From contig CALCMV010000199.1 in the NCBI GenBank assembly GCA_937967535.1, positions 1 through 32,440 of the forward strand: a DNA stretch of 32,440 bases, given 5' to 3'. This DNA is from an uncultured Saprospiraceae bacterium. GTDB lineage: Bacteria; Bacteroidota; Bacteroidia; Chitinophagales; Saprospiraceae. The notes under the pieces were generated by a model that saw only the letters and a list, made by a program, of their open reading frames with translations, ran no database searches and was not told the origin of the DNA. A program made the translations under genes and the position numbers. Shown here piece by piece: positions 3,835 to 32,440 of this stretch (positions within the stretch are counted from its first letter, which is position 1; every line of letters begins with the position of its first letter).

Positions 3835-4000
3835 TGAATGACAAATAAATTTAAATTTTACTTTGTTTTTACTGATAATTAATAATTAATAAATTAAACA
3901 TTTTTTATCATTCAAAATTTTTCATTCATCCCGATAAACTCCCGCTTTCAAGAAGCCCCCGTTAGCTAATCGGGGAAGAACAAAACAACCTCGTCGAATT

Positions 4001-4072
4001 GTTCTTAAACTTGTTCTTAAACTTGTTCTTAAACTTGTTCTTAAACTTAAACTTAAACTTAAACTTAAACTT
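4001..4072 (-). repeat. hexamer-type tandem array (TTTAAG/AACAAG on the minus strand) 3' of the M28 peptidase gene
   Basis: Plus strand reads gttcttaaacttgttcttaaacttgttcttaaacttaaacttaaactt. Confidence 0.9.
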
Positions 4073-4109
4073 ATTACCTAGTGGCTTATGAAAATTTAAA
4101 AGATTCCAT

Positions 4110-6029
4110 TTACTCCTGCGGCACATCCGACACAATTCGCTTTTCGCGTTCTGCCAATTCCCATGCAGTCAGGAAAACCAATCGGGCGATGCGTTCCATT
4201 TTTTTATAATCCAACTTATCGGGCGTATCGGTGATTTGGTGATAATCTTCGTGAACGCCACTGAAAAAGAAGGCAGAGGGAATACCTTTTTCCGCAAAAT
4301 TATAATGGTCTGAACGATAGTAAAAACGGTTGGGGTCATCTTTGGCATTGAAGGTATAATCAAGTTCTATTTTGGTATATTTATCGTTCATGGCTTTATT
4401 GATGACATTGAGTTCGGTACTGATGCGGTCTGCACCGATGACATAGACGTAGTTCGGATTGAGGTGGTTTTCATCTACTCTGCCAATCATATCAACGTTG
4501 AGATTGGCGACTGTTTGTTTTAATGGAAACACCGGATTATTGGCATAATATTCTGAGCCAAGCAAGCCTTTTTCTTCGCCCGAAACCGCCATGACGAGGA
4601 CGCTGCGGCGAGGTTGCGCGTTGGTTTCGGATGCTTTGGCGAAGGCTTCCGCGATTTCGAGTACAGCAGATGTGCCTGAACCATTGTCGTCTGCGCCATT
4701 GAAAATATCGTTTTCGCGTCTGCCCAAGTGGTCGTAGTGCGCGGTGATAACGACGACTTCATCGCTCAATTCGGGGTCAGAACCACGAATAAAACCCAAT
4801 ACATTTTCTGCCAAAATATCTTCCTGATTTTTCTGTTGGCGAATGACAATTTTTGTTTTCAATTTGACGGCTTCCGGCTCGCCGGTATCGCGTATTTTGT
4901 TGCGAGCTTTGGTGACTTTAGCCACTTTTTTTCCCATAATCGCCCGCGCTATATCGGTAGAAATGTAACAATTATTGGCATATTTACGCGCCGAATTTCT
5001 ATTGCCCAATACCAAATTGGGTTCGGTCAATTGATAAGCAAATTGTGCGGCATTGATGCGTACATTCGGCTCTATGATGAGCAGGGTTTTGACACCGTTT
5101 TTGCGGGCTGCCTGCAATTTTGACTGCCAATTTGTCGTCCATTCCGAAGGGCTTTGTGTACCGCTAATATGAAAATTGCCTGCGGCATCCTGCGGTTCGC
5201 CGGGATAGACCAAGACGACTTTTCCGTTGACATTTTGCCCCTTGTAATCGCTATATTTTGGGTCGTCGATACCATAACCAAGAAAGATAACTTCTTTCGC
5301 ATCCAATTTGGAACGACTACGATTGGAGGAAGGAAAGGCATAGAAATCTTCCAGATATTTGTAGGTTTTGCCGTTGACTTTTATCTTGATGCCATCTGCT
5401 TCCCAAGCTTCTCCTTTTAATGGATAGGTTTGAAAATAGGTGTTTTCCTCTCCCAAATCGGGTAGTCCGAGTGTTTTGAAATGATTGGCAATGTATTCGG
5501 CGGCTTTTTGTTGACCGCTTTTGCCTGTTTCGCGTCCTTCGTATTCGTCGGAAGCCAAAATCATAGCGTGTTTTTCCAAATCTGTTGCCATAATGGTATT
5601 GGCAAATCGGCTGGCTTCATCTATTACCGGGAAGTAATAATCACCCATTTTCGGTGCCGTCGGTACGATGACTTCTTCGTTTGATTTTACCTGCCCCGAA
5701 GGAATGACCGATACGCCAAGCCCGGATTTTGACGGCTGGTTTTCGACCATTGGCGGTCGGGTGCGGTTGGGTCTGTTGGCAGTGATGCGTCGCTCATTTA
5801 TGCGAGGTGCTTTTTTGTCTTTGAAAAGCAATTCCTCCGAAGCAATCGTTTCCTCTTGCTTGACATCGGTAACTTTGCGCCCGTTGACGGTCTTTTCGAC
5901 CATTGTTTTTTTGACAACTCGCACCGTAATCAAGGTGTCGTAAGTCACGCTTTCCATAACGAGCGTATCTGACTGCCCGTAAGCAATAGTGGAAATGAGG
6001 AGCAACAGTATGATAACTTGGTTTTTCAT
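4110..6029 (-). CDS. secreted M28-family metallopeptidase
   Basis: Signal peptide; VVITAHYDHLG, GADDNGSGTSAVLEIAEAF, AVSGEEKGLLGSEYYANN, DMIGR, RSDHYNFAEKGIPSAFFFSG. Confidence 0.92.
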   Translation of the reverse strand: MKNQVIILLLLISTIAYGQSDTLVMESVTYDTLITVRVVKKTMVEKTVNGRKVTDVKQEETIASEELLFKDKKAPRINERRITANRPNRTRPPMVENQPSKSGLGVSVIPSGQVKSNEEVIVPTAPKMGDYYFPVIDEASRFANTIMATDLEKHAMILASDEYEGRETGKSGQQKAAEYIANHFKTLGLPDLGEENTYFQTYPLKGEAWEADGIKIKVNGKTYKYLEDFYAFPSSNRSRSKLDAKEVIFLGYGIDDPKYSDYKGQNVNGKVVLVYPGEPQDAAGNFHISGTQSPSEWTTNWQSKLQAARKNGVKTLLIIEPNVRINAAQFAYQLTEPNLVLGNRNSARKYANNCYISTDIARAIMGKKVAKVTKARNKIRDTGEPEAVKLKTKIVIRQQKNQEDILAENVLGFIRGSDPELSDEVVVITAHYDHLGRRENDIFNGADDNGSGTSAVLEIAEAFAKASETNAQPRRSVLVMAVSGEEKGLLGSEYYANNPVFPLKQTVANLNVDMIGRVDENHLNPNYVYVIGADRISTELNVINKAMNDKYTKIELDYTFNAKDDPNRFYYRSDHYNFAEKGIPSAFFFSGVHEDYHQITDTPDKLDYKKMERIARLVFLTAWELAEREKRIVSDVPQE

Positions 6030-6992: not shown

Positions 6993-7050
6993 CTACTTGT
7001 TCTTAAACTTAAACTTATTCTTATTCTTAAACTTAAACTTAAACTACTTA
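6993..7050 (-). repeat. hexamer-type tandem array (TTTAAG/AATAAG/AACAAG on the minus strand) immediately after the deformylase-like stop codon
   Basis: Plus strand reads tacttgttcttaaacttaaacttattcttattcttaaacttaaacttaaactactta and abuts the stop at 7051-7053. Confidence 0.9.
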
Positions 7051-8181: not shown

Positions 8182-8739
8182 ATGAAAAAGGCAAATGTTA
8201 ATTCGTTTGACAAGAACAAAGTACAAGTAAAATTGATGAAAAACAAAAACCTCAGAATCTCTGATGGTACAAAAAATTCCACTAAAATCGTTAATCTGCG
8301 AAAAACAGGCATCACTATCTGGACAGATGGTAATCATCTTAAAATCTTTCGTGGCGATCTGCTTAATGAAGTTATTGGGCGGAGTGCGTGTCGGGCTAAT
8401 CAGTTTCAGACAGTAGAGTTTGTGGTTACCGAAAGCGAACAGACATCGCAGGTAATCGGCGCGAGTAATATTCTGGAAGGGCGTTCTATTAAAGGTGAAA
8501 AGACATCACAGGTAATCGGCGCGAGCAATATTCTGGAAGGGCGTTCTATTAAAGGTGAAAAGACATCGCAGGTAATCGGCGCGAGCAATATTCTGGAAGG
8601 GCGTTCTGAAAGTGATGATATTTTAGTGATTAGTGCTAAAAATGGAACATCGGAAGGACGCTCAATAAAGGGAAATAGAGCTATTTCGATTAGCTTGAAT
8701 GAAAAAACTGTTATTATTAGGCATGGCAGTATTTCTTAA
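8182..8739 (+). CDS. hypothetical small protein with ~3 copies of a 20-aa repeat (TSQVIGASNILEGRSIKGEK)
   Basis: Start at internal Met 8182 (MKKANVNSF); repeat in protein and DNA; no signal peptide. Confidence 0.7.
   Translation: MKKANVNSFDKNKVQVKLMKNKNLRISDGTKNSTKIVNLRKTGITIWTDGNHLKIFRGDLLNEVIGRSACRANQFQTVEFVVTESEQTSQVIGASNILEGRSIKGEKTSQVIGASNILEGRSIKGEKTSQVIGASNILEGRSESDDILVISAKNGTSEGRSIKGNRAISISLNEKTVIIRHGSIS
8441..8607 (+). repeat. 60-bp tandem repeat, ~2.8 copies, nearly perfect
   Basis: agacatcgcaggtaatcggcgcgagtaatattctggaagggcgttctattaaaggtgaaa recurs at 8441, 8501, 8561. Confidence 0.97.
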
Positions 8740-17059: not shown

Positions 17060-17539
17060 ATGAAAGAAATTATAGAGAACGTAAGGGGCTTGCTTGAAGA
17101 TAAATTTGAGGCAGAAGAGGAATATAAAGATTTTTTTATCGTAGACATCAAAATGACGACCCCCAACAGAATGGAAGTGTTCATTGAAAGCGACTCTAAT
17201 TTGTATATTGACCAACTCAAGCCCCTCAATCGCTACCTTCAGGAGCATATTGATGAGGCAGGTTGGATGGGCGAAAAATATACCTTAGATGTATCGTCGC
17301 CGGGAGTGGGTACACTCAAAGTCAAGCGACAATACTTCAAAAATATCGGCAGAAAGGTAGAAATCCGCCTCCACGAAGGTAAGCCCGAAACCGGCAAACT
17401 CATCGCCGTCAATGAACAAAGCGTCACCATAGAACAGGAAAAGACGAGTAAAGAAGGCAAAAAGAAAATCAAACAAATAGTCGAAACGGTCATCCCATTT
17501 GACCATATCAAGCAGACTATCGTAAAAATAAGTTTTTAA
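17060..17539 (+). CDS. rimP: ribosome maturation factor RimP
   Basis: LDVSSPGVGTLKVKRQYFKNIGRKVEIRL, followed by nusA and infB. Confidence 0.93.
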   Translation: MKEIIENVRGLLEDKFEAEEEYKDFFIVDIKMTTPNRMEVFIESDSNLYIDQLKPLNRYLQEHIDEAGWMGEKYTLDVSSPGVGTLKVKRQYFKNIGRKVEIRLHEGKPETGKLIAVNEQSVTIEQEKTSKEGKKKIKQIVETVIPFDHIKQTIVKISF

Positions 17540-17620
17540 TGAGTAACGAGCAGCGAGTAGCGAGTAAGGAGTGCATAAGGACAACTCTTACTCGCTACTC
17601 GTCACTCGCTACTCGCTACT
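17537..17620 (+). repeat. inverted pair of 7-nt arrays between rimP and nusA, forming a long hairpin
   Basis: TAATGAG TAACGAG CAGCGAG TAGCGAG TAAGGAG (17537-17571, starting at the rimP stop), then ACTCGCT ACTCGTC ACTCGCT ACTCGCT ACT (17590-17620). Perfect 13-bp core 17555-17567/17588-17600. Confidence 0.92.
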
Positions 17621-17629
17621 AATAAAATT

Positions 17630-18880
17630 ATGAGCATCAATTTAGTCGATTCGTTTTCCGAGTTTAAGGAAATGAAAAACATAGACCGCCCCACGATGGT
17701 GCGTGTTTTGGAAGATGTATTTCGCACATTGATTCGCAAAAAATACGGCTCTGATGATAATTTTCAGGTCATTGTCAATACCGACAAAGGTGACCTTGAA
17801 CTCTGGCGAGTGCGCGACATCGTAAAAGACGGTGCCGAAATTGAAGACGGCAACACTGAGGTACATCTCAAATATGCCCTCACCATTGAGGAAGACTATG
17901 AGGTAGGCGAGGAATGTTATGAACAACTCTTCCTCAAAGACTTCGGACGCAGAGCGATTATGGCTGCACGTCAGACACTCATTTCGCGGATTTTGGAATT
18001 GGAGAAAGATGACATCTATCGCCGCTACTCCCAACGGGTCGGCGATGTGGTACTCGGCGAGGTGCATCAAATCCTCAAACGCGACATCCTCGTATTGGAC
18101 GATACAACGGGCAATGAACTCGTATTGCCTCGAAATGAGACGATTAAAGGTGATTTTTTCCGAAAAGGTGAACTTGTACGCGCAATTATACGTAAAGTAG
18201 AGATGAAGAATAACAACCCTGTTGTTATCCTCTCTCGTACCGACAATACATTCCTCGAAAAACTCCTCGAACAAGAAGTTCCTGAAATCGAGGACGGACT
18301 CATTACCATCAAAAAAATTGTCCGTATGCCCGGCGAACGCGCCAAGGTAGCCGTCGAATCTTACGACGACCGCATTGACCCCGTAGGGGCATGCGTAGGG
18401 ATGAAAGGTTCGCGTATACATGGTATCGTGCGTGAGCTACGCAACGAAAATATTGATATTATCAACTATACTAATAATGAGGGACTGTTGATTCAGCGCG
18501 CGCTTACGCCCGCCAAAATCACCTCATTAGAACTTGACGACGAAGCACGTCGGGTAGCCGTCTATCTGCGCCCCGACCAAGTATCGCTCGCTATCGGAAA
18601 AGGTGGTTTGAATATCAAACTCGCCAGCCGATTGACCGAATACGAAATAGATGTATACCGCGATACCGACGAGGTGATTGATGATGTAGAGCTAAATGAA
18701 TTTAACGACGAAATTGACCAGTGGGTGATTGATGCCTTCAAATCTGTCGGATGCGATACCGCACGCAGCGTACTCGCTTTGAGCAAAGAAGAAATCATTC
18801 GTCGTACCGACCTTGAAGAAGAAACTATAGATGAGGTAATAAGAGTATTATCCTCAGAGTTTGAAGGAGATGTTGACTAA
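17630..18880 (+). CDS. nusA: transcription termination/antitermination factor NusA
   Basis: N-terminal NusA domain, S1 and KH regions (VGACVGMKGSRIHGIVRELRNENIDI, PDQVSLAIGKGGLNIKLASRLTEYEIDV). Confidence 0.96.
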   Translation: MSINLVDSFSEFKEMKNIDRPTMVRVLEDVFRTLIRKKYGSDDNFQVIVNTDKGDLELWRVRDIVKDGAEIEDGNTEVHLKYALTIEEDYEVGEECYEQLFLKDFGRRAIMAARQTLISRILELEKDDIYRRYSQRVGDVVLGEVHQILKRDILVLDDTTGNELVLPRNETIKGDFFRKGELVRAIIRKVEMKNNNPVVILSRTDNTFLEKLLEQEVPEIEDGLITIKKIVRMPGERAKVAVESYDDRIDPVGACVGMKGSRIHGIVRELRNENIDIINYTNNEGLLIQRALTPAKITSLELDDEARRVAVYLRPDQVSLAIGKGGLNIKLASRLTEYEIDVYRDTDEVIDDVELNEFNDEIDQWVIDAFKSVGCDTARSVLALSKEEIIRRTDLEEETIDEVIRVLSSEFEGDVD

Positions 18881-19366: not shown

Positions 19367-22300
19367 ATGGCGAAACGTCTAGTCAAGGTTGCATCAGAAC
19401 TTAATGTTGGTATCGGCACCATCGTAGAGCATCTCAATGCTAATGGGTTCTCTATTGAAAATAAGCCAACAGCGAAAGTCACCAATGATATGTATTCCAA
19501 TCTCCTCGAAGAATTTAGCAGTTCTGTGGCTATCAAGGAGCAAGCCGACCAACTTATCATAGGCACACGTAACAAAACCAAAGAAAAAGAGGCGGAAGCC
19601 GAGCCCGAAGTTGCTGTAGCAGAGCCGGAACCTACACCCGAACCTGTTCAGGTAGCTCCCGAACCCCTAATCGAAGAAGAAATAGACGTTCCCGAACTAC
19701 TCGAAGAGGTTGATGTGCCGCCTATAATTGAAGAAGAACCTATTATAGAACCTACTCCCGAACCGATACCCGAACCGGAGCCTGCACCCAAGCCTAAAGC
19801 CAAAGCCAAACCTAAACCCAAGCCGGAACCTAAACCAGAGCCTAAACCGGAACCGGAGCCACAACCGGAAATATCCGAATCTGTAGAGGAGGTTCCTGTT
19901 GCCGTAAAGAAGAAAGATGCCGAGCCGGAAATGATAGAAACGCCCAAATTGGACGGACTCAAAGTAGTAGATAAAATGGACTTGAAAGAACTCAAAAGAG
20001 CAGGCAAGAAAAAGAAGAAAAAAACACCCCCGAAAAAAGAAACACCGGCAAAGAAAAAAGAACCTGTGGCAAAACAGAAGAAAGAAGCACCGAAAAAGGA
20101 ACAAGTCAAGCAGCAAAAACCGGAAGTTCCCAAAGAAAAACCCACAAAAACAACACAACAATACGTAGAACCCGAAATGTATCGCGCCGAAACTCCGACC
20201 TTAAAAGGCGTAAAAGTATTGGGCAAAATTGACCCATCCAAATTCAAAAAAGAACCATCCAGAAAACGTAAAGACAAGAAAAAAAGCGGTAATAATAACA
20301 ACAAACAAAATAACAATAACAATAATAATAACAACAACAACAACAACAACAACAAAGACGGCGAAAGCAAATCACAAAAACGCAGACGCAGACGCAAAAA
20401 AGTAGCTACCGGAAATAGCAGAGACAACAACAGAGGCGGTGGCAATAACAGTAATAATAATAGCAATAATAATAATAATAATAACAGAGACAACAACAGA
20501 GGCGGCGGCAATAGAGGCGGCGGTGGCAATAGAAGAGGCAACCGTTCTAATAATAAAGAAATCTCCAAGAAGGAGGTAGATGAAAAACTCAAACAAACTA
20601 TGATGCGCCTCCAAGGTGGAGGCAAAAACCGCCGACAAAAAATACGCCGGGAAGAACGCTCGCGCCGACGCGAAAAGCGCGAAATGATAGACCTCGAAAG
20701 CCAAGAAGCAGCACAAGTAATTCAAGTGACGGAATTTATCTCCGTTTCCGAATTTGCGAGCTTGATGGATGTATCCGCCACCGATGTGATTATGGTGTGT
20801 ATGAACATGGGAGTCATCGTAGCCATCAATCAGCGTCTGGATGCCGAAATTATCGAAATTATTGCCGAAGAATTTGGCAAAAAAATAGAATTCATCAGTG
20901 CAGAAGCGCAGATGGAAATGGAGGAAGAAGAAATCGTGGATGCCATCGAAGACCTCCAGCCGCGCGCACCGATTGTCACTGTTATGGGACACGTTGACCA
21001 CGGGAAAACTTCGCTTCTGGACTACATCCGAAGTGCCAAAGTTATCGAAGGCGAGGCAGGGGGAATCACCCAACACATCGGTGCATATGAGGTCAAAGTC
21101 GGCGAAGACGACCGCAAGATTACCTTCCTCGATACACCGGGTCACGAAGCCTTTACCGCCATGCGTGCGCGTGGTGCTAAGGTCACTGATGTTGCCGTTA
21201 TTATCGTAGCAGCAGACGATAACGTGATGCCACAAACCAAAGAAGCCATCAGTCACGCACAAGCAGCAGGCGTACCTATCATCTTCGCAATCAATAAGAT
21301 AGACAAAGACGGCTCAAATCCCGACCGCATCAAAACCGAACTTGCCCAACTCAATTTCCAAGTCGAAGAATGGGGCGGCAAATATCCTTCGCAAGATATT
21401 TCAGCTAAATTCGGACAAGGCGTAGACGACCTGCTTGAAAAGATACTACTCGAATCCGACATCCTCGAACTCAAAGCCAACCCCGACCGCGAGGCACAAG
21501 GCGTTGTACTCGAAGCATCCTTAGATAAAGGACGTGGTTACGTCTCCAAATTCCTAATACAAGCAGGTACACTCAAAATCGGTGATTCCATCGTAGCCGG
21601 TTCGCACTTTGGTAAAGTACGTGCCATGATTAATGAACGCGGTCAACGTATTGATATTGCAGGACCTTCTGCACCGGTACTCGTACTTGGTATGAAAGGC
21701 GCACCGCAGGCAGGCGAAAAATTCAAGGTGATGAAAGCCGAAAGCGATGCCCGCCAACTCGCCGCCAAACGCGCTCAAATCCAAAGCGAACAAGAACGAC
21801 GTGCCACCAAGCGACTCAGCCTCGAAGAAATTGGTCGTCGTCTTGCACTTGGCTCATTTAAAGAACTCAACCTCATCGTCAAAGGTGATGTGGATGGGTC
21901 TATCGAAGCCCTTGCAGACTCCTTGCTCAAACTCTCTACCGAAACCGTACAGGTCAATATCGTACACAAAGCCGTTGGTCAAATCATCGAATCCGACATC
22001 TTGTTGGCATCTGCATCCGATGCGATTATCGTTGGTTTCCAAGTGCGTCCATCTTCAATGGCACGCAAACTGGCAGAGCAAGAAGGCGTACAAATCAAGA
22101 CCTACTCCGTCATTTACAGTGCGATAGAAGAAGTCAAATCTGCCATCGAAGGCATGTTGGAGCCGACCAAAGAAGAGCGCATCACAGCTACCGTCGAAGT
22201 CCGTGAAGTCTTCAAAATCAGCAAAGTCGGTACGATTGCGGGTTGCTTTGTACAAGAAGGAAAAATCTCGCGCAACGACCACATCCGTGTCATCCGCGAT

Positions 22301-22492
22301 GGTATCGTTATCTACCCAATGAAAGAGGGCGTAGTCGGCGAACTTGCTTCGCTCAAACGCTTCAAAGATGATGTCAAAGAAGTCAAAAACAACTTTGAAT
22401 GTGGTATGAACGTCAAAAACTTCAACGACATCAAAGTAGGTGACATCATTGAAGGCTACGAAATCGTAGAAGTGAAACAGAAGTTGAAGTAG
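19367..22492 (+). CDS. infB: translation initiation factor IF-2
   Basis: [45 protein letters not shown]; long low-complexity N-terminus with PEP and poly-Asn tracts. Confidence 0.97.
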
Positions 22493-22523
22493 TGATTGGT
22501 GACTCGTGATTAGTGATTAGTTT
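22490..22523 (+). repeat. heptad array starting at the infB stop codon
   Basis: TAGTGAT TGGTGAC TCGTGAT TAGTGAT TAGTTT. Confidence 0.88.
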
Positions 22524-22545
22524 TCACTTCGTGAAATGTTTTTTT
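22522..22545 (+). terminator. infB terminator
   Basis: TTTCAC ttc GTGAAA followed by a T7 run. Confidence 0.7.
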
Positions 22546-22599
22546 GTATAACGAATTTGACTTATTTTTTTGTGCAAAAATAATTTTCAATATAAAATA

Positions 22600-22637
22600 G
22601 AAACGCCTGTGAGATTTTTAAATCTCACAGGCGTTTC
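22600..22637. terminator. bidirectional terminator between convergent infB and T9SS gene
   Basis: Perfect 18-bp inverted repeat gaaacgcctgtgagattt tt aaatctcacaggcgtttc. Confidence 0.75.
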
Positions 22638-22640
22638 AGA

Positions 22641-22667
22641 TTAATCATTAATCATTAATCATTAACC
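22641..22667 (-). repeat. heptad array (TAATGAT)n spanning the stop of the T9SS gene
   Basis: Minus strand GGT TAATGAT TAATGAT TAATGAT TAATC; the stop TAA is at 22655-22657. Confidence 0.9.
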
Positions 22668-23521
22668 AAAAACTGCGTTGTCAATACCTTATCCTCACTA
22701 CTCAATCGCAGCATATAGGTACCTGCATTAAGTTGACTCACATCAAATTGTGCCTGATTTGTACCTGTCGCCAAATCAAGCGGACGAGTAATCGCAATAC
22801 GTCCTTGCACATCCATAATCTCTGCCAGTACTATCCCCGAAAAATTACTTTCTACCCTGACATTCAGGTAGTTAATCGCCGGATTTGGAAATACCTTCAT
22901 CACAGCATCCAGAGCAGTCACATCAAAAATACCTACCGTAGCTTCCTGTAGCGTCAGTGAAATATTAGCACCACCATCACCACTATTGCCCGTAGCACGA
23001 TTGACTGATGTACCTGCGGCATAAAAAGTCACACTACCCGAGCTTTCCGCCGGTGCCGTCCATTTCACATCAAATTCGCCGGAATCTTGTGTGCCGGCTT
23101 GTTCAGCATAGCTTCTGCCGGTTTCATTTGCGGTAGCTATCTGTACGCCCGTACCCGGACTCGACCAGCCATTGGTATCGCTCAAATCATCATCTATTAG
23201 ATTCACTATCTGAAAGCCGTGTCCTGCTGCATCGCTATTTATATCCGACACCGTCACCCTCACATCGTAAGTTGCGCCCGGAAAATACTCCGTTACAGCC
23301 GTTGTAGTTCCCTCCTCAAAAACTTCAATCATAATTGTAGTTTCGAGTGGTCCATTGTGGCAAGTTTGGCAGACCCAAGGCACACCGGGCGATATTTCTT
23401 GGTCGCCGGGCGCACCCGTATTGCCTGCATTTTGGGCAGCTGCCCGTCCGCCCGAATTGCTCATCAGCAGGAATCCAAGTGCCAAAGCACTCATTAAAGT
23501 GTAAATAATTTTAAATTTCAT
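22655..23521 (-). CDS. secreted protein with CxxCH motif (choice-of-anchor V/reelin-like) and T9SS type A sorting domain
   Basis: Signal peptide; NTGAPGDQEISPGVPWVCQTCHNG; C-terminal FPNPAINYLNVRVES...GTYMLRLSSEDKVLTTQFLV. Confidence 0.85.
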   Translation of the reverse strand: MKFKIIYTLMSALALGFLLMSNSGGRAAAQNAGNTGAPGDQEISPGVPWVCQTCHNGPLETTIMIEVFEEGTTTAVTEYFPGATYDVRVTVSDINSDAAGHGFQIVNLIDDDLSDTNGWSSPGTGVQIATANETGRSYAEQAGTQDSGEFDVKWTAPAESSGSVTFYAAGTSVNRATGNSGDGGANISLTLQEATVGIFDVTALDAVMKVFPNPAINYLNVRVESNFSGIVLAEIMDVQGRIAITRPLDLATGTNQAQFDVSQLNAGTYMLRLSSEDKVLTTQFLVND

Positions 23522-25016: not shown

Positions 25017-25074
25017 TTGGCTATCAGTTCATAGTTGCCAGTTCATGGTTCATAGTTCATGGTTCATAGTTCAT
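25017..25074 (+). repeat. heptad array (AGTTCAT/GGTTCAT), copy 2
   Basis: GGCTATC AGTTCAT AGTTGCC AGTTCAT GGTTCAT AGTTCAT GGTTCAT AGTTCAT. Confidence 0.9.
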
Positions 25075-31154: not shown

Positions 31155-32015
31155 ATGATTAACAATAACATAATAGCTCTTAGTGCAGCTTTAGCCCTAA
31201 TGATAATGTTGCTTTCGGGTTGTTCTATCAGTACCCATTCGGGTATTCTTAGTCCGGGTTTGGTGAATACTATTACATCTCCCGAGACTCCTACCTATCA
31301 AGGCAAACCCGAAAGTACAAACTATATCAGTGGTAAAGTGCTCTTCAGTGAGCCTCACACTCGACGAAAAGACCGGAATTTTGTGGGTAGTGTACGTTTT
31401 TATCGTGCCAAGACAAAGGAGTATCAAAGTGTGACTTACGGAGCGTTTGGGTATTTGGGAAATTACAAAAGTGGCAACTTCATTCCCGCTTCATTGTCAG
31501 GCAATCATATTTATGGGGGGCTTGGTTTGATGGGGGGCATCAATTGGCATGTACCTTTCGAGAAAATGGATTGGGAGGTATTCAAGCTCAATGCTCGTCT
31601 TTATAATGAGTTGGGCAAATATCCAAGATTAAAAAATGAATTGACCGATTATCGGAATAATCACGACGAGATGCTGCCCCCAATTTGTTCTGGTTTTATA
31701 TTTCCCAGTTGTCGTCCTGCTCCTTACTCTGATTTGTATTCAAGGCATATAGCTATGCTTGACACCTCAATAGGAATGGGCATCAAAATCAAGCATAAAG
31801 GCAGGCATAATACACAGATAGGTGCAGGGATAAATTTTCACCTCTTGGGTAGTTCCCGTAATTCGTTTAGTGTTGAAAACCCTGTGAAACCGATTAATAC
31901 CGCAGGGTTTTATCTTCAATTTAGCCACACACTTCGTGAGCGACTTTCGCTCAATATTGATTTGATAGGTGGTGGGATTACTACGGGGCTGAGTTATCAA
32001 TTTGGGAAAAAATAG
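31155..32015 (+). CDS. hypothetical lipoprotein / outer membrane-associated protein
   Basis: MLLSGCSIS lipobox; alternating beta-type C-terminus ending SYQFGKK. Confidence 0.7.
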   Translation: MINNNIIALSAALALMIMLLSGCSISTHSGILSPGLVNTITSPETPTYQGKPESTNYISGKVLFSEPHTRRKDRNFVGSVRFYRAKTKEYQSVTYGAFGYLGNYKSGNFIPASLSGNHIYGGLGLMGGINWHVPFEKMDWEVFKLNARLYNELGKYPRLKNELTDYRNNHDEMLPPICSGFIFPSCRPAPYSDLYSRHIAMLDTSIGMGIKIKHKGRHNTQIGAGINFHLLGSSRNSFSVENPVKPINTAGFYLQFSHTLRERLSLNIDLIGGGITTGLSYQFGKK

Positions 32016-32085
32016 CGAGTTACGAGTGTCAAGTAGTGGGAAATAAATCTCTTGTTACTCGGCACTCGCTACTCACTACTCCTTA
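32013..32085. repeat. inverted pair of heptad arrays between convergent genes, each beginning at its gene's stop codon
   Basis: + strand TAGCGAG TTACGAG TGTCAAG TAGTGGG; - strand TAAGGAG TAGTGAG TAGCGAG TGCCGAG TAACAAG. Confidence 0.92.
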
Positions 32086-32440
32086 ATACCCCTCATCATG
32101 CACATCATCACAGTGATAATGTTTTTCTTCTTTCTTCTTTGGTTTTTGGGTTTCTGCACCGCCGTGTTTTGCTGCAAGTAGTTTTTGAATCAGTCGTGCG
32201 CGTTCTGCTCGGATGGCTTTACGTTTTTCGAGGTCGTCATTTTTATCGTAAAATTTGATGCCATCTACAAAGGTCATTTCTGCCTGTGCATATACCGACA
32301 GCGGATTGTCCGACCAAAGGACAATATCCGCATCTTTTCCGGTTTTGATGCTGCCTACACGGTCGTCTATACGTAGGAGTTTTGCCGGATTTAGTGTCAC
32401 AAATTTCCATGCTTCTTCTTCGCTCATATCACCGTACATG
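32083..32440 (-). CDS. C-terminal part of an amidohydrolase, truncated by window end
   Basis: EEAWKFVTLNPAKLLRIDDRVGSIKTGKDADIVLWSDNPL is a typical amidohydrolase C-terminal motif. Confidence 0.85.
   Translation of the reverse strand, partial: MYGDMSEEEAWKFVTLNPAKLLRIDDRVGSIKTGKDADIVLWSDNPLSVYAQAEMTFVDGIKFYDKNDDLEKRKAIRAERARLIQKLLAAKHGGAETQKPKKKEEKHYHCDDVHDEGY

Follow-up and report, generated by a model that had tools for sequence, protein, structure and literature searches.

Between rimP and nusA in an uncultured Saprospiraceae bacterium, two facing arrays of heptads lie in the spacer, beginning at the rimP stop codon. This raises the question of whether they constitute a device specific to this operon, which encodes a factor acting on hairpins, or one copy of a more widespread element. 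The window, the whole stretch of 32,440 nucleotides analysed, is contig C199 of a Saprospiraceae draft genome (hereafter referred to as G000; 4.28 Mb, 70% complete).

A heptad hairpin starting at the rimP stop codon

The spacer and its flanking genes are organised as follows:

17060–17539, + strand: rimP (ribosome maturation factor; Pfam RimP_N and DUF150_C); its TAA stop, 17537–17539, is triplet 1 of the first heptad
17537–17571, + strand: 5' arm of the hairpin, heptads TAATGAG TAACGAG CAGCGAG TAGCGAG TAAGGAG (sequence, tandem repeat finder, stem 17541–17568)
17569–17586, + strand: hairpin loop, in which a few inner pairs are possible (stem search, fold)
17587–17620, + strand: 3' arm of the hairpin, inverse heptads CTT ACTCGCT ACTCGTC ACTCGCT ACTCGCT ACT (sequence, stem 17587–17614)
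17621–17629, + strand: short A/T-rich spacer outside the stem, ahead of the nusA start (sequence, fold)
17630–18880, + strand: nusA (Pfam NusA_N and NusA KH domains)
19367–22492, + strand: infB (translation initiation factor IF-2; Pfam IF-2 and GTP_EFTU), the next gene of the operon

A sequence-only reading had described these arrays, their start at the rimP stop, their end nine bases before the nusA ATG (17630) and a perfect 13-bp core (17555–17567, GAGTAGCGAGTAA, with 17588–17600, TTACTCGCTACTC), all of which were confirmed. Its claim that the facing arms pair into a long hairpin also held: the best ungapped stem (17541–17568/17587–17614) has 28 positions and an 18-nt loop, and the RNA fold of positions 17530–17640 reached -45.3 kcal/mol, versus -22.7 ± 3.1 for dinucleotide shuffles (z -7.3; 0 of 200 shuffles did as well). 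The hairpin is not followed by a T-run, and there were no Rfam matches at the gathering score across the whole window.

Other stop-anchored arrays in the window

The proposal that the hairpin belongs to a family of stop-anchored repeats seen at several loci holds in the window, at the infB stop and at the convergent stops at 32013–32085, and it extends further than first suggested, as units of 6 and 8 nt behave likewise. The features concerned are:

22490–22521, + strand: second stop-anchored array, TAGTGAT TGGTGAC TCGTGAT TAGTGAT TAG, in phase with the infB stop at 22490–22492 (sequence, tandem repeats)
22600–22637, no strand assigned: 17-bp perfect inner palindrome, between the infB-side and facing arrays (stem search)
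22640–22668, - strand: facing GATTAAT array, lying across the stop of the convergent gene 22655–23521 (- strand) (tandem repeats, sequence, fold)
32013–32085, no strand assigned: second GAGTAGC-type hairpin, TAGCGAG TTACGAG TGTCAAG TAGTGGG facing its own inverse and spanning the stops of two convergent genes (sequence, fold)

The fold of 22488–22660, at the infB-side and facing arrays, gave a z of -6.5, and that of 32010–32090, containing the GAGTAGC-type hairpin, a z of -3.1. An array near 25041–25074 lies away from stops, at a distance of 786 nt. The window also contains hexamer arrays with CTTAAA or CTTATT units (3999–4073 and 6995–7045), the first of which lies about 37 nt past the stop of the minus-strand gene 4110–6029; stop hairpins with an AGTTTA hexamer unit are also found at other places in the genome. 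Within the gene 8182–8739, positions 8437–8607 contain nearly three copies of a 60-bp in-frame tandem repeat.

Genome-wide scale and unit length

In G000, the GAGTARC unit had 75 + 72 matches, versus 2 + 10 for a reversed control pattern, often in facing pairs about 50 bp apart. A sample of 675 kb in 76 stretches, a few from contigs chosen for holding matches and most taken by number, contained 110 arrays of period 7, 101 of which were intergenic. Periods 8 and 6 were also abundant (75 and 55 arrays, respectively), period 9 was represented by 12 arrays, and periods 5, 10, 11 and 13 by one to three. The sequence-only reading had called for a comparison of the 7-nt repeats with shuffled intergenic DNA, which yielded 93 arrays in real spacers and one to three in shuffled ones. 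Array density per kb was 1.67 in convergent spacers, 0.36 and 0.86 in tandem spacers and 0.24 in divergent spacers.

Stems were then counted regardless of periodicity. In the 675-kb sample, 183 of the 406 stops had a strong stem within 150 nt, and for 80 of them the 5' arm started no more than 15 nt from the stop; 34 of these 80 stop-abutting stems (34/406 stops) were built from tandem units of 6–8 nt. About one gene in 12 in this sample ends in a 6–8 nt repeat hairpin starting at its stop. At gene starts, the 0–15 nt bin contained stems in 21 of 420 cases. Corresponding counts (within 150 nt, abutting and repeat-built) were 24, 4 and 0 of 221 stops for random stretches from other genomes of the family or order, and 35, 7 and 0 of 170 for stretches around nusA in other genera. 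The sample from relatives within the genus was enriched for orthologues of chosen sites, and the unbiased contrast is therefore that between G000 and random DNA of other genera, which was strong both for stop-abutting stems (80/406 versus 4/221, p 4e-12) and for repeat-built ones (34/406 versus 0/221, p 3e-7).

Several other repeats were noted in the course of this survey. Octamer stop hairpins (units GAGTTGTT, ATGCGACA and GTGTTGTG) occur at L165, L166, L176, L188, L195 and other loci, some with arms of 90 nt, and equal the heptad hairpins in frequency. Many hairpins have at their tip, between the arms, a small palindrome that recurs, such as TTTTCGCTACGCGAAAA or TTTTGCTTCGCAAAA (L157, L177, L182, L239 and L267). 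Separate dispersed elements include a palindrome GCCACAAAGACACGAAGACACAAAG ... CTTTGTGTCTTTGTGGC (L148, L155, L173 and L201), an element with ATTCAAAATTCATAATTCAAAATT (L147, L168, L193, L205 and L215) and a repeated palindrome AGGAAATTAGGTGGAA / TTCCACCTAATTTCC (L147 and L215).

Anchoring at the stop codon

Enrichment of 7-nt periodicity at stops had been set beforehand as a check on the family idea, and it was found: within array-bearing spacers, 37 of 74 stop ends were touched by an array, versus 15.7 ± 2.9 under random placement. The excess at start ends was not significant (12/52 versus 8.5 ± 2.7), and starts were less certain than stops, the genes having been called as our own hexamer-scored ORFs, without published annotation. 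In stop-abutting hairpins of period 7, the lag-7 match was 0.33 at the last sense codon, 0.48 at the stop codon and 0.72–0.81 over the next nine bases, and it is because the match rises at the stop codon that the array is placed as beginning there. In cases such as TAATGAT TAATGTA TAACGAT, TAACGAG TTACGAG TTACGGG and the TAATGAG TAACGAG of the window, the stop itself opens the first unit as its initial triplet. The triplet one period past the stop was also a stop in 10 of 49 cases, versus 17 of 196 at offset positions. Near stops, facing arms were the rule.

The rimP-nusA site in relatives

The NusA loci compared came from genus members and from 80 contigs in the genome collection. In other genera, the spacer between rimP and nusA was mostly 0–20 nt long, and longer in some, and no inverted heptad pair was seen between the two genes at the loci collected. 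Within the genus, heptads were present in all five checkable members (G000 and four other species with a nusA contig), with a different unit in each: GGGTTRC in G002, the NusA of which is 97% identical to that of G000, a 245-nt GAGTRGT double array in G005, GGTAAAT/GGTGATT in G003 and a short ATTAATC array in G001. Folding of the spacers (ViennaRNA, Markov shuffles) gave z values of -5.0 for G000, -2.4 for G002, -4.7 for G003 and -8.4 for G005, and of only -0.5 for G001. Given the strong folds formed by unlike units in G000, G002, G003 and G005, the structure has been kept in four of the five members, and the sequence has not. Conservation of the hairpin in close relatives, a second check set beforehand, was thus observed, strongly in three relatives and weakly in the fourth. 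The rimP-nusA hairpin is a single copy of a class that extends across the genus, that of stop-anchored inverted short-repeat hairpins. In this class, facing arrays of 6–8 nt units start at or within a few nucleotides of the stop and can fold into one long stem-loop; they are dispersed over many genes and enriched at gene 3' ends.

Turnover of sites and units

For a comparison of orthologous stops, 21 array-bearing and 14 array-free stops were sought in four members of the genus; two sites (L174 and L199:8357) dropped out. Orthologous 3' ends often carried a hairpin again, with another unit (GAGTAGC replaced by AGTCGAT; GATTTTT by GGTTAAT; GATTTTT by an 8-mer). Overall hairpin retention was nevertheless low, at 5 of 16 where G000 has a repeat hairpin versus 3 of 21 where it has none. 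Sites turn over fast, and rimP-nusA has been retained better than the average one, although it was also chosen because it had drawn attention.

The unit families are species-specific, each species amplifying its own. GGGTTRC had 442 matches in G002, 229 in G003, 108 in G004, 16 in G005, five in G000 and none in G001; GGTTAAY had 423 in G005, 229 in G000, 219 in G004, 103 in G002, two in G001 and none in G003; and GAGTARY had 347 in G005, 24 in G000, 14 in G004, seven in G002 and none in G001 or G003. The rimP-nusA unit of G002 and that of G005 are each abundant in the genome concerned, suggesting copying between sites within the genome. No agent for such copying was found; Y1 transposases were few, and 11 of 13 Y1 loci had no array of 6–8 nt units in the flanks read. 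The GAGTARY heptad has also been amplified in a few other genera (G072, G017, G148 and G143), with matches in 21 of 199 genomes of the family.

Arm composition and mismatches

The arms are polar, with 7% C in the 5' arm and 6% G in the 3' arm, and when the stop-anchored 5' arms were read from the stop, 32 of 66 had stop triplets in all three frames, versus 11 of 66 3' arms. On the sense strand, the mismatches of tandem hairpins comprised 55 G-U and 99 A-C (G-U fraction 0.36, bootstrap 0.27–0.46), contrary to the prediction of selection for pairing in the sense RNA, and those of convergent pairs were balanced (26 to 30). In the absence of a G-U excess, nothing points to selection for RNA wobble pairing. 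The arms did not clearly mirror each other in unit order (5 of 74 with p < 0.05, combined p 0.035, against shuffled unit order), and the in-register comparison of arms was not used in this context, because it is biased by the choice of the best stem. Mirror copying of the arms was considered and not retained, its support against shuffled unit order being only marginal. Arm polarity, the lack of a G-U excess and unmirrored unit order fit arrays that grow and are copied by DNA processes.

Comparison with known repeats

As a kind, these hairpins match the heptad hairpins of cyanobacteria. STRR (short tandemly repeated repetitive) heptad hairpins occur in cyanobacteria, for example between hupS and hupL, and have been proposed to stabilise transcripts or to couple translation (PMC2670836). 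They share with the Saprospiraceae elements arrays of 7-nt units in intergenic DNA, also within operons and near gene 3' ends, that are able to form hairpins, an ability indicated here by folds and stem searches. They differ in that the arrays described here have units of 6, 7 and 8 nt, start at the stop itself and occur in another phylum with other unit sequences; the available part of the STRR text describes no systematic stop anchoring (PMC2670836). The P6b stem of the Nostoc trnL (tRNA-Leu UAA) intron provides a second parallel: it is built from heptads of either class I (TDNGATT) or class II (NNTGAGT), and on several occasions the first class has displaced the second without loss of the stem (PMC4476775). 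Here too, a heptad stem is kept while the unit class is swapped, the G-richer units lie on the 5' strand, and the P6b units resemble those of the Saprospiraceae (GATTTTT, GATTAAT and GAGTARY); however, P6b is a single intron-RNA locus with two unit classes, whereas the present hairpins lie at many protein-gene stops and have many unit families. What links these hairpins to the cyanobacterial repeats is unit resemblance, for which convergent origin is as likely as common descent.

Direct repeats of the heptamer TAACTGA, known from Beggiatoaceae, cyanobacteria and five Bacteroidetes, lie mostly ahead of start codons (PMC4679880). They too are heptamers dispersed in intergenic DNA, but with one unit, in direct repeats before starts in the main genome studied and with one inverted case, whereas the hairpins described here are inverted pairs after stops with many units, and their arrays are concentrated at stop rather than start ends, as reported above. 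REP elements are placed at gene 3' ends and may supply the stop codon (PMC3733652), those of E. coli near stops can stall ribosomes (PMC12306157), and REP/BIME sequences have been associated with the stability of mRNA and with the stalling of ribosomes close to the stop (PMC3733652, PMC12306157). The Saprospiraceae hairpins are likewise dispersed palindromes at gene 3' ends that sometimes provide the stop, but their arms are tandem arrays, with units of 6, 7 or 8 nt that differ from stop to stop in place of a consensus palindrome with a GTAG or CGTC tag, and no RAYT (Y1 transposase) gene flanked by the repeats was found. No description of stop-anchored heptad hairpins in Saprospiraceae was found in the literature searched, most subscription papers lying outside it, and the stop-codon placement, genus-wide scale and mixture of 6-, 7- and 8-nt units appear to be unreported.

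Possible roles and origins

Our preferred reading, the chances of which we consider about even, is that these fast-turnover hairpins, where they act, do so in the manner of REP or STRR elements, as 3'-end or intercistronic stabilisers. The arrays would arise by slippage-type expansion and be copied between sites and arms, older units being replaced by the family currently abundant in the genome. Once transcribed, the stem-loop may halt 3'-to-5' exonucleases where the upstream cistron ends, much as a REP/BIME or cyanobacterial STRR hairpin would, and within the rimP-nusA-infB operon it could serve as an intercistronic stabiliser or spacer that leaves the A/T-rich nusA start region free. The hairpins lie at stops, are weakly represented at starts and persist at rimP-nusA, all of which suits a role at the 3' ends of mRNAs; low retention at orthologous stops, the weak G001 stem, the lack of a G-U excess among sense-strand mismatches and the unmirrored unit order speak against the preferred reading. 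A neutral or selfish by-product, in which replication and repair make 6–8 nt arrays and inverted copies that accumulate where harmless, with no selection for a hairpin function, is a tenable, if doubtful, alternative. Spacers would then fill up to the stop because coding sequence is the first place from which arrays are purged. Fast turnover, species-specific families, several unit lengths and the lack of a G-U excess all speak for such a process, and slippage is a known source of variation in long simple repeats with 7-nt units (PMC4679880); but arrays abut stops far more often than random placement in the same spacers allows, with no significant excess at starts, facing arms are the rule near stops, and the rimP-nusA hairpin has been kept across the genus.

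The sequence-only reading had proposed an attenuator, processing site or translational insulator between rimP and nusA, with autoregulation by NusA as a possibility. The hairpin does sit in the operon that encodes NusA, itself a factor acting on hairpins, and its location has been retained in the genus. However, the same kind of hairpin lies at many unrelated genes, and hairpins of this kind are absent before nusA in other genera; because the element is genome-wide, NusA autoregulation is rejected as its specific cause. In G000, a T-run follows only one of 34 repeat-built stop-abutting stems, versus 24 of 85 ordinary stems further downstream, and given this lack of T-runs, at rimP-nusA as elsewhere, the hairpin is not a canonical intrinsic (Rho-independent) terminator with a U-tract. 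With no preference for G-U over A-C mismatches either, attenuator, insulator and autoregulation are left unsupported, and we regard an attenuator or terminator here as very improbable. Spread of a REP/RAYT-type mobile palindrome by a Y1 transposase would account for palindromes dispersed at gene 3' ends, GTAG REPs often supplying a TAG stop (PMC3733652), and Y1 transposases are present in four of the six genus members. This identity was rejected after the Y1 search, in which most Y1 loci proved array-free within the flanks read. In addition, G004 (69% complete) has hundreds of repeats and no Y1 match, and the units vary in length and sequence, with no constant palindrome or tag; we give this origin scarcely any credence. 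Equally hard to credit is an element acting as DNA rather than RNA, as a cruciform or protein-binding site; mismatches unbiased towards G-U and the strong polarity of the arms would suit it, but a sequence-specific binder is hard to reconcile with units that are exchanged wholesale from one species to the next and from one site to another in the same genome.

Cyanobacterial intergenic heptad hairpins have been noted without a known function. In this genus, with about one gene in 12 ending in a hairpin of this kind that starts at the stop and carries a new unit in each species, the same stop can be compared in close relatives with unit A, with unit B or with no hairpin. This natural comparison set makes two questions testable: whether mRNA 3' ends are set by the repeats, and by what route the two facing arms end up with a common unit. 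It is conceivable, though on balance unlikely, that a dedicated process builds and renews 6–8 nt inverted hairpins exactly at stops, each species rewriting hundreds of mRNA 3' ends with its own unit while the structure is kept. If so, these bacteria would possess a concerted system for marking 3' ends that depends on structure and not on sequence.
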